A stretch of DNA of 64,000 nucleotides from Gemmatimonadales bacterium (lineage in GTDB: Bacteria > Gemmatimonadota > Gemmatimonadetes > Gemmatimonadales > GWC2-71-9). The DNA lies in contig DASUJH010000060.1 in assembly GCA_036279355.1 (NCBI GenBank), positions 62,001 to 126,000 of the forward strand, given 5' to 3'. The notes under the pieces are model-generated. The model was not told the DNA's origin and ran no database searches. It saw nothing but the letters and a program-made list of their open reading frames with translations. Below, piece by piece: positions 13,804 to 49,974 of this stretch (its first letter is position 1; each line of letters opens with the position of its first letter). Position numbers and translations under genes: made by a program.

Positions 13804-14808
13804 GTGGGCGACACGTTGAAGGTCGGGGTCATCGGCGCGGGCGCGATCACCCAGATCGCACACCTGCCGACGTTCAAGAAAATGAAGACCGACGTGCGCG
13901 CGCTCTGCGACAGCGACCTGCCGAAGGCCCGCGCGCTGGCCGAGCGGTACGGCATCAAGGACGCATTCGACGACATCGAGGAGCTGCTGCGCTACGAGGA
14001 GCTGGACGCGGTCGTGGTCTGCTCGCCGACGCACCTGCACGAATCCCACATCCTCGCCGCGCTCTCCGCCAACCTGCACGTACTGGTCGAGAAGCCGCTC
14101 ACGATTTCGCTCGCGAGCGCGCAGCGGATTCAGCGCGCGGTCGAGCGGCGCGGGCGCGTCGTGCTCGTCGGGATGAATCATCGCTACCGGCCGGACGTCC
14201 AGATCGTCCGCAGCTTCGTCCAGAGCGGCGAGCTGGGCGCGCTCGAGAGCGCGCGCGGCAGTTGGCACGTGTACCGCCCCGCGCGCGCGCAGCTCGGCTG
14301 GCGCACCCGGCGGGAGCAGTCGGGCGGCGGGGCGATGTTCGATCTGGGGCTCACGATTCTCGACCTCAGCCTCTGGCTCGCGGGCAATCCCCCCCCGATC
14401 CGCGCGAGCGCCGCCCTCGACCGCGCCGGCAAGGACCGGGTGGAGCAGTCCGGCAGCGCGTTCCTGGTATGCGATGGCGGGTTCTGCCTCTTCTTCGACG
14501 TGACCTGGCGCCACATCGGCGAGGGAGAACGCTTCGGTGTCGGGATCCGTGGGAGCAAGGGAACGGCGGCGGTGAATCCGCTCAAGGTGTGGAAGGAGCT
14601 GCACGGCGTACCGACCGACGTGGCGCCCACGGGGTCGGGGGGCCGCGAGAATCCGTTCCTCGCCTCGTTCCGCGCGCAGTGGGCGCACTTCGAGGCGGCC
14701 GTGGCGGGCGACACCGCGGTGCCGCGGCTGGACGAGCAGGTGGTGCTGCATCGCGTGCTGGAGGCGATCTACCGCTCGGCGCAGGACGGGCGCGACGTGC
14801 AGTTGTGA
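13804..14808 (+). CDS. Gfo/Idh/MocA-family NAD(P)-dependent oxidoreductase
   Basis: 334 residues, GTG start. N-terminal Rossmann fold with VGVIGAGAITQIAHLP (7-22) and the conserved EKP (VEKPLTIS, about 95-102) whose Lys lies in the active site; MNHRYRPDV opens the substrate domain. Family members oxidise or reduce sugars, inositols or biliverdin. Substrate unknown. Its stop overlaps the GTG of the DUF4105 gene by GTGA, so the two are translationally coupled. Confidence 0.92.
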   Translation: MGDTLKVGVIGAGAITQIAHLPTFKKMKTDVRALCDSDLPKARALAERYGIKDAFDDIEELLRYEELDAVVVCSPTHLHESHILAALSANLHVLVEKPLTISLASAQRIQRAVERRGRVVLVGMNHRYRPDVQIVRSFVQSGELGALESARGSWHVYRPARAQLGWRTRREQSGGGAMFDLGLTILDLSLWLAGNPPPIRASAALDRAGKDRVEQSGSAFLVCDGGFCLFFDVTWRHIGEGERFGVGIRGSKGTAAVNPLKVWKELHGVPTDVAPTGSGGRENPFLASFRAQWAHFEAAVAGDTAVPRLDEQVVLHRVLEAIYRSAQDGRDVQL

Positions 14809-16166
14809 GAGGCGGACGGGCGGACGGGCGGACCGGCGGAGCGGCGGACAGATGGGGCGCCGTCCTGAACCTGTGCGCGGCCGTTGCGCTGTTGGCGATG
14901 GCCGCTCCATCGGCCCACGCGCAACCCGGAGTGGCCGCGCCTCCCGCCGTCCGCCCGTCCGCCCGTCTGCCCGTCCGCCCGTCCGACTCCTCCCTCATCA
15001 TCTCCCTCCTCACGATGGGCGTCGGCGCCGAGGTGTGGGAACGCTTCGGGCACAACGCCATCCTGGTGCAGGACCGGCTTCACGGCACCAGCATCGCCTA
15101 CAACTACGGGCTGTTCGATTTTCGGCAGGAGAACTTCGTGCTCCGCTTCATCCAGGGGCGGATGCTCTACTGGATGGAAGGCTTCGATGCGGCGCCGATG
15201 ATCGAGCACTACATCCACGACAATCGCACGATCTGGGTACAGGAGCTCAATCTCTCATCCGAGCAGAGCCGCGCGCTCGCCGATTTCCTCGAGTGGAACG
15301 CGCGCCCGGAAAACCGGTTTTACCACTACGACTACTACAAGGACAATTGCTCGACCCGCGTGCGCGACGCCATCGACCGCATCCTGGGCGGCCAGATGCG
15401 CGCCGAGATGGACACGATCCCCACCGGCACCACCTATCGCTCGCATACGGAGCGGCTCACCGAATCCGATCCGGCGCTCTACTCGGCGCTGCTCCTCGCC
15501 CTGGGCGAGCCGGCCGACCATGAGCTGAGCGCGTGGGAGGAGATGTTCCTGCCGGTCGAGCTGCACCGCTGGCTCGCGCAGGTTCACGTGCGCGGGGCGG
15601 ACGGCCGTCCGATGGCGCTCGTGCGTGCCGAGCGCACGTTGTATCTGAGCACGCGGCCCGTGCCGCCCGCGAGGCCGCCGCACTGGCTCGTGGCCTACCT
15701 CGCGGCCGGGGTCGCGATCGGCGCGGGGCTCGTCGTGCTGGCGCGGCGCGCGGTGGCGTCGCGGCGTGCGGCGCGCGGATTTGCGTGGCTCGCCGGCGGC
15801 TGGACGCTCATGATCGGGGTCGCGGGCGGCATTCTCGCCTTTCTCTGGGCGTTCACCGACCACACGGCGGCGTACCGCAACGAAAATCTCTTCCAGGCCA
15901 ACCTGCTGCTGCTGCCGCTCGCGTTGCTCGCGCCGAGGCTCGCGCGGGGCAGCGCATGGGCGCGGCAACCGGCGGTGACGCTCGCGTGGGCGGTGGCGGC
16001 CGTGTCGGTGTTAGGACTGCTGGTGAAGCTGCTGCCGGGGTTCGATCAGGCCAACGCGGAGGTGCTGGCGTTCGCCGTGCCGGCCAACGTGGGGCTCGGG
16101 ATCGGCGTGTCGATGGTGGCTCGGCAGCGGCCGGTGAGCGGCGGCGCGCCGGGCGTCAAAGACTGA
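14805..16166 (+). CDS. DUF4105 (Lnb N-terminal-like) membrane protein
   Basis: 453 residues from a GTG overlapping the oxidoreductase stop. A signal-like hydrophobic segment (about 20-38, cleavage after AHAQ) is flanked by Arg/Gly- and Pro/Arg-rich stretches encoded by octamer repeats. The DUF4105 domain follows: VWERFGHNAILVQD, YNYGLFDF, FYHYDYYKDNCSTRVRDAID (His, Asp and Cys look like an active-site set; the Cys-containing NCSTRVRD is the family hallmark). Four transmembrane segments (about 285-450) end the protein. Related domains occur in lacto-N-biosidase chaperone-like proteins; biochemical role unknown. Confidence 0.85.
   Translation: MRGGRADGRTGGAADRWGAVLNLCAAVALLAMAAPSAHAQPGVAAPPAVRPSARLPVRPSDSSLIISLLTMGVGAEVWERFGHNAILVQDRLHGTSIAYNYGLFDFRQENFVLRFIQGRMLYWMEGFDAAPMIEHYIHDNRTIWVQELNLSSEQSRALADFLEWNARPENRFYHYDYYKDNCSTRVRDAIDRILGGQMRAEMDTIPTGTTYRSHTERLTESDPALYSALLLALGEPADHELSAWEEMFLPVELHRWLAQVHVRGADGRPMALVRAERTLYLSTRPVPPARPPHWLVAYLAAGVAIGAGLVVLARRAVASRRAARGFAWLAGGWTLMIGVAGGILAFLWAFTDHTAAYRNENLFQANLLLLPLALLAPRLARGSAWARQPAVTLAWAVAAVSVLGLLVKLLPGFDQANAEVLAFAVPANVGLGIGVSMVARQRPVSGGAPGVKD
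14811..14990. repeat. Inverted pair of octamer GGAC-repeat arrays around a signal peptide
   Basis: Left array 14813-14850: head-to-tail octamers of the GGACGGGC type (GGACGGGC twice, then GGACCGGC, GGAGCGGC, GGACAGAT). Right array 14948-14988 is the same repeat on the other strand (GCCCGTCC type, four to five copies). About 95 bases encoding the hydrophobic core of the signal peptide lie between. The arms can pair in RNA or single-stranded DNA. Confidence 0.85.
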
Positions 16167-22904: not shown

Positions 22905-23749
22905 CCGGCCCGCTCCGGACGGCCCTGGTCGGGCCGGGCCGGATGGGGCAGGGCATCGCGCTCGCGCTCGTTGCGGGCGGATGGGAGGTGACGCTGCTGG
23001 CGCGCTCGGCGCGGCCGGTGGCGTCACCTCTCGCGTTGCGGACGGGAGACTGGGGGCCCGCGGTCGGCGCGGCGGAACTCGTGCTCGTGGCGACGCCCGA
23101 CGACGCGATCCCCGATGCGGCGGCCGCGCTCGTGGCGTGTGGCGCCGTCGGGCCGGCGCACGTGGTGCTCCATCTGGCGGGTCCACTCGATCGGAGCGCG
23201 CTATCCGCACTCGCGCCGACCGGCGCGGCGCTCGGCTCCTTTCACCCATTGCAGACCGTGGCCGACTCCGCCCGCGCGCCGGCGCGTCTCCGCGGCGCCT
23301 TTGCCGGCATCGAGGGCGACGCGCGCGCGCTCGCCGCGGCAGAACGGCTCGCCGAGGCGCTCGGCATGACGCCCGTGCGGCTCAGGGCCGAAGCGAAGCC
23401 GCTCTACCACGCGGCCGCGGTGATCACGGCGAATTACACGGTGGCATTGGCGGCCATGGCGGAGCGGATCGCGCAGTCGGCGGGGGTGCCCGAAGAAGTC
23501 GTGGGGCGGATGTATCAGCCGCTACTGGCCGGCGCCGTCGGCAACGTGGCGGCCCTCGGCGCCCGACGCGCGCTCACCGGCCCCATCCGTCGCGGCGACG
23601 TGGCAACGGTGCGGGCGCACCTCACGGCGCTCGCGCCCGGAGACGCGGCCATCTACCGGGCGGTGGGGCGCGCAGCACTCGCGCTCGCGCGCGAGGCGGG
23701 GCTCGGTGAGCAAGCCGCGGCCGAGCTGGCGCGCCTGCTCGCCGACTAA
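22901..23749 (+). CDS. Rossmann-like/DUF2520 dehydrogenase-family protein, CTG start
   Basis: 282 residues if started at CTG 22901. The Rossmann strand and GxGxxG loop (TALVGPGRMGQGIALAL) are complete only with this start; the first ATG (22943) lies inside the loop and would delete the first strand. GAGG precedes the CTG by five bases and the CTGA overlaps the protease stop like the ATGA/GTGA junctions elsewhere. The C-terminal all-helical DUF2520 (YHAAAVITANYTVAL) resembles the ketopantoate reductase/6PGDH C-terminal domain. Possible oxidoreductase; substrate unknown. Its stop interlocks with the lolA stop on the other strand. Confidence 0.82.
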   Translation: MTGPLRTALVGPGRMGQGIALALVAGGWEVTLLARSARPVASPLALRTGDWGPAVGAAELVLVATPDDAIPDAAAALVACGAVGPAHVVLHLAGPLDRSALSALAPTGAALGSFHPLQTVADSARAPARLRGAFAGIEGDARALAAAERLAEALGMTPVRLRAEAKPLYHAAAVITANYTVALAAMAERIAQSAGVPEEVVGRMYQPLLAGAVGNVAALGARRALTGPIRRGDVATVRAHLTALAPGDAAIYRAVGRAALALAREAGLGEQAAAELARLLAD

Positions 23750-24486
23750 CCCTGCTCGATCACCCTGACGCCGTCCGGCACGTCGAAGGTGAACGTCTTG
23801 TCGCTCACGGGGACGTTGATACGGAGGTGGTGCAGCGTGAGTGTGCGGTGCTGGCCCGAGATCTCCTCGATCTCGATCCGTCTCGGCAGCGCGTCGGCCT
23901 TGTCGAGCCACACGGTGGCCTTGGTGAACGGCATGTCGGGCACGGTGGGTAGCATCTCGATCACGTCGACCGCGCGCCCGTCGATCCGATCCGCGCGGAC
24001 GTACGTGGAGGCGTACCGCTCAGCGGGCCGGTCGAGCAGCCACGCGATGAGATTGTAGCCGTACACCGGCCCGCCGCTCGGCACCGGCAACTTGAGCACC
24101 TGGCCGGGCGTGGTGCTTGGCGTGTACACCCAGACATGCTCGCCGTCGATCACGATCGCTTCGCCCGGCGGATCGGTGAAGCGCATCGAAAGTTTGGCGT
24201 GGCCCGACTGGGTGAGCACGCCCTTGCTTTCCTGGTCACCGATCATCGGGTTCTCGATCGTCTGATCGAAGTCGGCCCGGAGCGAAATGAGCGAACGGTA
24301 GGCGTCCGCCGCGCGGTCGACGATGGCGGGGGCCTCTTGGGCGGACAGATGGACAGACGGACAGACGGACAGCGCGGCGCCCGGGATGATCGCGCCGGCC
24401 AGGCGAACTACGGCCGCCCAACCCGCGGCGCGGCGCCCGGCCCTGCATCTGCCTGTCCGACTGTCCGCCCGTCCGCCCACCCTCAC
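23746..24486 (-). CDS. lolA: Outer-membrane lipoprotein carrier protein LolA
   Basis: 246 residues from GTG 24486, overlapping the aroF stop (GTGA). The N-region ([12 protein letters not shown]) and the segment after the hydrophobic core ([11 protein letters not shown]) are encoded by octamer repeats; mature protein probably begins near [17 protein letters not shown]. The LolA half-barrel follows: [48 protein letters not shown]. Shuttles lipoproteins through the periplasm from LolCDE to the outer membrane. No LolB is visible. It is the last gene of the long minus-strand run. Confidence 0.9.
24341..24480. repeat. Second inverted pair of octamer GGAC-repeat arrays, in lolA
   Basis: On the plus strand 24341-24372 holds GGACAGAT, GGACAGAC, GGACAGAC, GGACAG; 24450-24478 holds the reverse orientation (CTGTCCGA, CTGTCCGC, CCGTCCGC). 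About 75 bases encoding the signal-peptide core separate them. Same octamer frame, orientation and position relative to a GTGA start as the copy at 14811. Confidence 0.85.
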
Positions 24487-25523
24487 GCCCGCTCCCCCGC
24501 CGGCTCCGTCACCCGCCGTCCGATGGCCTCGGCGATGAGCCGCACCTCGCGCATCATCTGGCTGAACTGCGTCGGAAAGAGGCTCTGCGCGCCGTCGGAG
24601 AGCGCGCGGTCCGGATCGGGATGGACCTCGATGAGAAGTCCGTCGGCGCCAGCCGCAACCGCGGCGCGCGCCATCGGCGTCACCATGTCGCGATGCCCGG
24701 TGGCGTGGCTCGGGTCGGCCACGATGGGCAGATGTGACGCGCCGTGCACGACCGGAATGGCCGCGAGGTCGAACAGGTTGCGCGTTGCCGGGTCGAAGGT
24801 GCGGACACCGCGCTCGCACAGGATCACGTTCGCGTTGCCCTCGGCCAGGATGTACTCGGCCGAGAGGAGCAGCTCCTGGATGGTGGCGGCGAGGCCGCGC
24901 TTGAGCAACACCGGGCGGCCGCAGTGGCCCGCGCGCTTGAGCAGCGAGTAGTTCTGCATGTTGCGCGCGCCGATCTGCACCACATCGGCGACGGCTGCCA
25001 CCGCGTCGAGACCCTCGGGATCCATCGCCTCGGTCACGATGAGCAGGCCGGTCTCCTCGCGCGCCCGGGCGAGAAGTGCCAGGCCCCGGGCGCCAAGCCC
25101 CTGAAAGGCGTACGGCGAGCTGCGCGGCTTGAACGCGCCACCCCGGAGCACGGTGGCGCCGGCATCCCGCACCGCGCGCGCGGCGTCAATGATCTGGCGC
25201 TCGCTCTCGACGGAGCAGGGACCCGCCATCACCACGATCTCCTCGCCGCCCACGGCGACCCCGCCGCCGAGCTGTACCACCGTGGACTGCGGGCGCCATT
25301 CGCGCGATACCTGCTTGTACGGTTTGGTGACCGGAATGCATTCCTGCACCCCGGCCAGTCCCGCAAGGCGCGAGGGATCGACGCGGCCGTCGTTGCCGAC
25401 CAGGCCCACCGTGGTGCGTTGGCGGCCCGGCATGACCCGCGCCTCGTAACCCATCTCCTCGATGACGGTGGCCACCTGACGAATCTCCTCGTCGGTAGCG
25501 CCGTGGCGCATCACGATCAGCAT
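24483..25523 (-). CDS. aroF: 3-deoxy-7-phosphoheptulonate synthase, type I-beta
   Basis: 346 residues. The N-terminal ~75 residues form the ferredoxin-like regulatory domain of Thermotoga-type DAHP synthases ([33 protein letters not shown]). The KDPG/DAHP barrel follows: [15 protein letters not shown] (metal Cys), [16 protein letters not shown] (phosphoenolpyruvate binding), LLKRGLAAT, and [10 protein letters not shown]. Catalyses the first shikimate-pathway step; the N-domain probably mediates Tyr/Phe feedback. Located between smc and lolA on the same strand. Confidence 0.95.
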
Positions 25524-41613: not shown

Positions 41614-42078
41614 ATGTTCCGTATCCGTCTCGCGGCCGTTGGCGCCGCGCTCCTCATCGTCGGAGCTCCCGCCGCCGTGCGTGCCCAGGCACCGGCCGGT
41701 CCCGCCCCTGCCGCTGACGCGCCGCACGATCGCCACGACATCCGCCACGACCGGCGCGACATTCGCCACGATCGGCGCGACCGCCGCGCCGACGTGCGTG
41801 ACGTCCACCACGACCGCCGGGACCTGCGCGCCGATACTCGCGACGTCCACCGCGACCGTGCGGACCTGCGGCAGGATCGGCGCAAGGGGGCGAGCGCCCG
41901 CGAGCTCGCGAGCGATCGTCGCGACATCCGCTCCGACAAGCGAGGCGTTCGCCACGACCGCCGGGACGTGCGTCACGATCGGCGAGACATCCGCCACGAC
42001 ACCCGCGACATCCATCACGACCGGCGCGACGTACGCCATGACCGGCGTGAGCTCCGCGGCGACCGCGGTCAGTCGTGA
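41614..42078 (+). CDS. Secreted charged heptad-repeat protein
   Basis: 154 residues from ATG 41614, with AGGAGG six bases upstream. Signal peptide (1-26, MFRIRLAAVGAALLIVGAP then AVRAQ). The rest is almost entirely Asp/Arg/His in a seven-residue register D-R-R-D-[IVL]-R-[HA] repeated about thirteen times (for example HDRRDIR, HDRRDLR, HDRRDVR). This predicts a long single helix with opposite charges i to i+3/4. No family recognised. A hairpin with a T-tract follows. The opposite strand is open too (Val/Ala repeats) but is a shadow. Confidence 0.85.
   Translation: MFRIRLAAVGAALLIVGAPAAVRAQAPAGPAPAADAPHDRHDIRHDRRDIRHDRRDRRADVRDVHHDRRDLRADTRDVHRDRADLRQDRRKGASARELASDRRDIRSDKRGVRHDRRDVRHDRRDIRHDTRDIHHDRRDVRHDRRELRGDRGQS

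Positions 42079-48398: not shown

Positions 48399-49974
<1,576 letters not shown>

Follow-up and report, generated by a model that had tools for sequence, protein, structure and literature searches.

Xanthomonas and Nostoc carry arrays of the heptamer GGGNATC, and in Xanthomonas these arrays form 70-75 convergent inverted pairs (Rehm et al. 2015, PMC4692102). REP sequences occur as inverted doublets with a spacer (REPINs) and also as singlets, form hairpins in single-stranded DNA or mRNA, and in some cases sit inside genes such as uvrA; the units are small palindromes tagged with GTAG or CGTC, and the GTAG types accompany RAYT genes (Bertels and Rainey 2011, PMC3116915; Di Nocera 2013, PMC3733652). 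Rickettsia palindromic elements (RPEs) measure 105-146 bp, have a conserved sequence and lie in frame within conserved protein genes (Delihas 2007, PMC2229807). Finally, the enterobacterial RU-2 repeat, found at few loci, forms part of a predicted signal peptide in YPO1552 (Delihas 2007, PMC2759123). Dispersed bacterial repeats have mostly been described as intergenic, whereas the octamer family reported here lies largely in translated sequence.

The window is the whole stretch of DNA analysed here, 64,000 nucleotides from a Gemmatimonadales bacterium. A first-pass annotation of this sequence had described an inverted pair of octamer arrays around the signal-peptide core of a protein with a DUF4105 domain, for which Lnb_N is the current Pfam name, and had claimed that the arrays can pair so as to place the start codon at the base of a hairpin. 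Both descriptions hold. The pair is present (Table 1) and is built from the octamer word GGAC(A/G)G(G/A)C, with 41-nt arms that are 88% complementary and a stem that starts a few bases past the GTG at 14805. RNA folding of this pair gives -140 kcal/mol (z -8.1), and none of the shuffled sequences was equally stable. The further claim that the same layout occurs in a second, unrelated gene is likewise borne out by pair 2 in lolA, the arms of which are 81% complementary and fold at -99 kcal/mol (z -5.1), a stability that again no shuffled sequence reached. Scores of 18 or more are attained by four arrays in the window and by none in 30 order-3 Markov resamples of it. The two host genes are situated approximately 8 kb apart and both have names from lipoprotein biology (Lnb-like and LolA); Lnb_N and lolA genes are also close together in several relatives.

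Table 1. Position and reading of the two octamer pairs and their host genes in the window, and repeat words at the lolA signal peptide of the genomes compared (identified by G numbers).
Feature	Source	Position	Strand	Remarks
Predicted start codon GTG of Lnb_N (DUF4105) gene	Window	14805..14807	+	Overlaps TGA stop of upstream gene (14806-14808); from the sequence
Pair 1 5' (G-rich) arm, ~five octamers	Window	14811..14851	+	Translated ..GGRADGRTGGAADR.., signal-peptide n-region
Pair 1 loop	Window	14852..14941	+	Codes for hydrophobic signal-peptide core and likely AHA|Q cleavage site (by inspection)
Pair 1 3' (C-rich) arm	Window	14942..14987	-	Translated ..PAVRPSARLPVRPSD..
Mature Lnb_N protein	Window	14991..16166	+	Lnb_N domain and Lnb transmembrane domain; Pfam PF13387, PF25221
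lolA gene, outer membrane lipoprotein carrier	Window	23746..24480	-	Pfam PF03548
Candidate lolA start GTG	Window	24484..24486	-	Overlaps TGA stop of upstream gene (24483-25523, -); next GTG 24478-24480; from the sequence
Pair 2 G-rich arm	Window	24451..24477	-	5' along lolA; ..GGRADSRTG.., n-region
Pair 2 loop	Window	24373..24450	-	Codes for LolA signal-peptide core
Pair 2 C-rich arm as read along lolA	Window	24340..24372	+	c-region and likely cleavage site
lolA octamer GGACRGNC	G000			
lolA array GTCGGACN	G009, G098			
lolA array GTCGGATN	G018			
lolA array remnant	G023			
lolA heptamer GCGGANT	G014, G024			
Other lolA octamers	G030, G032			Another family

All 16 of the Lnb_N orthologues that were read are without octamer arrays, and several of them have the same coupled GTG start, as judged from their N-termini. 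Orthologues with a clear coupled start also have the shorter N-termini. By manual count, they carry approximately 27-41 residues ahead of the conserved domain, compared with 62 in the window protein, and LolA of the window has 48 such residues compared with approximately 20-27 in its nearest orthologues. In both proteins the added length is about the sum of the two arms, and the segment between the arms resembles an ordinary host signal-peptide core.

The octamers are not confined to these two genes. The pattern GGACNGNCGGACNGNCGGAC has 40 exact matches at approximately 30 loci in the window's genome, a census that combined pattern searches with fetched stretches, and for which a search with the pattern reversed is no independent control, since octamer arrays may in part match the reversed pattern too. 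Among 41 genomes, the same pattern has many matches in some members of the family (180 in G009, 52 in G018 and 30 in G001), whereas many genomes have no match at all. Phylum-wide, 53 of 298 genomes have matches, 36 of them among the 65 genomes of the window's family (manual count), and the matching genomes outside that family mostly have few matches each. The octamer repeat is concentrated in one bacterial family, probably of the Gemmatimonadota; a scan of named genomes gave distant relatives only, of which the one suitable for placing the phylum is a Gemmatimonadota MAG with 49% identity. Some copies are shared, as those in MeaB and Tgt occupy the same site in G009 and G018. An Rfam search of the window returned a tRNA only, and a literature search on Gemmatimonadota repeats found no relevant report.

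The arms in G009 and G018 are mostly 33-35 nt, corresponding to four units of GTCGGACN, and those of the window's genome are commonly 27-33 nt and more varied. Units within one array are usually unlike each other, and position 5 (N) of the octamer is nearly free in G009; the arm scan required six of the eight positions, so that conservation at those six is partly ascertained, with positions 5 and 7 exempt. The G-rich arm came first in 42 of 42 neighbouring opposite pairs, and a second, independent sample, made up of 40 stretches in eight genomes, gave 18 such cases versus 1, for a total of 60 of 61. This convergent order is strict for intergenic copies as well. The compact form of the element is approximately 76-80 bp, its loop sequence is not conserved, and comparison of the loops revealed no spacer sequence common to the copies. 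As read from their sequence, the octamer and its complement are free of stop codons in every frame. The subfamily GTCGGATN has 17 matches in G018. Where it forms pairs there, each of the two arms belongs to the subfamily, an agreement that speaks for the arms having been copied together as one unit.

When the arms of G009 pairs are set in the natural hairpin register, N bases that face each other can pair 16% of the time, compared with 29% for shuffled partners (a value this low arose in 15 of 2000 shuffles), and position 7 pairs above the shuffled level (11 of 2000 shuffles). Such avoidance of N-base pairing would produce a series of 7-bp stems with single mismatches between them. G018 shows the avoidance less strongly (201 of 2000), and the window's genome does not show it. 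That the arms are simple copies of each other is disfavoured by the below-shuffle pairing of N bases in G009. Across genera, the two arms of the MeaB copy have hardly changed, and in the Tgt copy one change is matched by the opposite arm (GTGGGAC with GTCCCAC), a compensatory change that, as a single case, is suggestive only.

Signal peptides hold 35 of approximately 149 sampled copies: 12 of 31 in G009, 7 of 31 in G018, 3 of approximately 35 in the window's genome and 13 of 52 in the independent set. Even placement would predict 1.4, 1.0, 0.9 and 2.1 copies, respectively, which for G009 and the independent set is 4-5%. The P values for the excess (6e-9, 5e-5, 0.06 and 1e-7, in the same order) are guides only, as copies were classed by eye, the background rule is crude, with a 20% signal-peptide share assumed for the independent set, and some copies are common by descent. 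Placement of the copies used a gene caller trained on codon use. Of the N-terminal copies in G009, 12 are at signal peptides versus 2 at other N-termini, against a background of 17 in 74 genes. Typical signal-peptide products are MNRKASDSRTVGLTDGMRAVGMSLVLSLSPTVRLSAQ.. in a peptidase M42 and MLKSDGRTVGRSDNPRMAVVALAGIVFLSASPTVRLSGQ.. in a DUF1800 protein. Signal-peptide copies also have longer loops, with medians of approximately 24 versus 11 nt in G009 and G018 (P 0.004) and a difference in the same direction in the independent set (P 0.045). The remaining copies are found in conserved proteins, including RadA, UvrA, ThiC, NadE, AtpG, Tgt, MeaB and Era, at gene ends and in intergenic DNA, and one copy in the window's genome sits between tRNA genes. 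The cytosolic proteins RadA, UvrA, ThiC and NadE are among the hosts in the window's genome. Away from signal peptides, in-frame copies within proteins occupy linkers and loops. The octamer repeat is over-represented at signal peptides and is not exclusive to exported proteins. The leaning towards exported N-termini that the first-pass annotation proposed is therefore real as an excess, but the element is not dedicated to them. Separately, two loci of G018 (L136 and L138) encode a tandem family of related exported proteins; the signal peptide carries an octamer hairpin in most of these proteins and is of the ordinary kind in one.

Short-repeat arrays are present at the lolA signal peptide in 9 of 33 genomes compared, made of several different words and spread over two families. 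In G014 and G024 both arms lie upstream of the hydrophobic core. Folding z values range from -6.1 to -2.1 across G000, G030, G032, G024, G018, G098 and G009, and folding is ordinary for G014 and G023 in the stretch tested, although the whole leader of G014 folds into a long hairpin. The majority of the 33 lolA loci have neither arrays nor unusual folding. In several genera the lolA arrays follow a GTGA or ATGA coupled start.

Comparison of host proteins with and without the element gives a mixed picture of how copies arrive. Relative to PDB 2r6f, UvrA has a 31-residue insert that equals arm plus loop plus arm, and UvrA of G018 is without it. Tgt and AtpG of G009 are approximately 16-20 residues longer at the element than their PDB relatives. 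In contrast, RadA linkers with arms are equal in length to those without, and Era shows no gain in length at the element, indicating that some copies are not simple insertions. Either inserted copies are later trimmed, or octamer-like codons can also give rise to arms where they stand. Mobilisation of the RAYT/IS200 type was rejected, as no arms were found near any of 19 Y1 transposase loci checked; presence of Y1 and presence of arrays are only weakly associated among the genomes of the family. One Y1 transposase gene in G009, a RAYT (L171, 2000-2335), is flanked by three copies of a palindrome of its own, AACCCCGGGCGCNAGCCCGGGGTT or its reverse complement, which are spread between 174 bases upstream and 381 bases downstream of the gene start and are unrelated to the octamers.

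The explanation that we favour, and regard as somewhat probable, is that the copies in the window are members of a non-autonomous, dispersed family of hairpin repeats that multiply as paired units and are tolerated where the protein is permissive. Each element would have a variable loop between two arms, each arm a short series of G-rich octamers, with the arms always arranged convergently, and the paired unit would multiply inside genomes of the window's bacterial family. In favour of this are the approximately 30 dispersed loci in the window's genome and the 0 to 180 matches in relatives, the fixed order of the arms and their mostly uniform length in G009 and G018, the UvrA insert, the GTCGGATN pairs of G018, the sites shared by G009 and G018, the signal-peptide excess and the variable loop. 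Since neither strand of the octamer contains a stop codon in any frame, copies could persist within genes wherever the protein sequence is permissive, for example at termini, in linkers between domains, in surface loops and in the n- and c-regions of signal peptides. Signal peptides may be especially favoured because the G-rich arm reads as an Arg-rich sequence suited to an n-region and the reading of its C-rich partner, ..PTVRLSAQ, resembles the native cleavage regions of these bacteria, in which case tolerance would be the cause of the signal-peptide excess. Counting against this explanation, the arms flank a native-looking core in the window genes and in many other signal-peptide copies, an arrangement that is not easily explained by one-step insertion of a unit. 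The lack of arms near the 19 Y1 loci checked, the RadA linkers of unchanged length and the Era protein without added residues count against it as well.

Alternatively, slippage, gene conversion or template switching could enlarge octamer-like host codons, such as those for VRLS in RadA or RLSAQ in signal-peptide c-regions, with the partner arm built opposite and no transposition of a unit. Growth in place, which we consider possible but unlikely, fits the RadA linkers, whose length is unchanged and whose armless relatives share PPVRLS-like residues at the same place, as well as Era, which shows no gain, the armless signal peptides that already end in ..RLSAQ or similar, and the native look of the core between the arms. 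It sits poorly with the clean 31-residue UvrA insert and its foreign loop, with opposing N bases in G009 that pair below shuffled partners, unlike a templated copy, and with a convergent order that is strict even between genes. Another reading is that an early-codon hairpin of coupled exported genes controls translation, coupling or co-translational export, and is kept or repeatedly re-evolved by selection. In its favour are the arrays of several words at lolA in 9 of 33 genomes and two families, the one compensatory change in Tgt, position 7 pairing above shuffled partners in G009 and strong folding of pairs 1 and 2. However, most of the lolA loci compared lack both arrays and unusual folding, many copies lie within genes for cytosolic proteins, at gene ends or, in one case, between tRNA genes, and the pairing statistics differ between genomes, and we find such selection doubtful. 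Improbable too is the proposal that hairpins from unrelated 7- and 8-letter words are repeatedly installed around the signal-peptide codons of translationally coupled genes for exported proteins, and most of all at lolA, where an mRNA hairpin with regular mismatches would control translation or export and the word would turn over while the place and architecture persist.

Phase variation, in which octamer slippage would shift the frame and switch the gene on or off, is brought to mind by a unit of 8 that is not a multiple of 3 and by arrays that follow start codons. We think it very improbable, given that units within an array usually differ, which disfavours slippage, that the arms are open in every frame and that many copies are outside genes. 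Chance, or ancestral low-complexity protein sequence, has almost no probability left to it: the high GC content of the genomes and the likeness of native c-regions to a single octamer speak for it, but it is refuted by the absence of such arrays from all 30 resamples, by most other families being without matches and by the Lnb_N orthologues without arrays. The first-pass annotation was thus right to see in the octamers a copied element and not ancestral protein sequence. As for the idea that the element supplies or remodels the N-terminus of exported proteins, the hairpin repeat that we favour may have such a use at signal peptides or may merely be tolerated there, and stop-free repeats that recur at export signals offer a natural test of N-terminus remodelling versus mere tolerance.

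Other repeats accompany the octamers. Hairpins of 7-letter words (GCGGANT, GGGGANT and similar) were seen at L065, L066, L117 (3114-3211), L225, L227, L228 and L135 (3162-3215), with arms of approximately 31-33 nt in the same convergent order. Four relatives have 29 to 93 matches each to this heptamer family and one more has 6, and in the stretches examined 10 of 10 heptamer pairs have that order. A second dispersed hairpin in the window's genome, with the conserved core GGCTCCGCCGACAAGCACACAGTCGGCTCCGCC, occurs at L085, L088, L090, L087 and other loci (contigs C4, C11, C26, C28, C33 and C59). Every copy has a self-complementary outer stem, but the stem sequence changes from one copy to the next. 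As in bidirectional terminators, several copies are preceded by an A-tract and followed by a T-tract, and some are located next to octamer arms or between them. The window also contains a 21/42-base tandem repeat (41725-42047) and a 6/12-base tandem repeat (48561-48656), the consensus sequences of which are unrelated to the octamers.

Compared with the described systems, the octamer element is like REPINs in forming inverted doublets in a fixed order. Unlike REPs, its arms are tandem arrays, no GTAG- or CGTC-tagged palindrome was seen by inspection, and the 19 Y1 loci checked are without octamer arms. Like RPEs, it is found in frame in conserved genes, as in the UvrA insert and in the Tgt and AtpG proteins that exceed their PDB relatives in length, but, comparing by description, its compact form of approximately 76-80 bp has no conserved loop. 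Whereas RU-2 involves a few loci, 35 of the approximately 149 octamer copies sampled are at signal peptides, and in many of these the core is flanked by an arm on either side. With the Xanthomonas GGGNATC arrays it shares a short G-rich word with a variable base, about four units, dispersal and convergent pairs. GGGNATC, in contrast to the octamers, is a 7-nt word whose G-triplets can form quadruplexes, and it is under-represented in coding regions, whereas the octamer is an 8-nt word with GG only, many copies of which are translated, with an excess at signal peptides. A strict order, arms of approximately four units and a single free position are also found with other repeat words in related genomes and, according to the literature, in Xanthomonas, and this recurrence of architecture hints at a shared way of making such hairpins.
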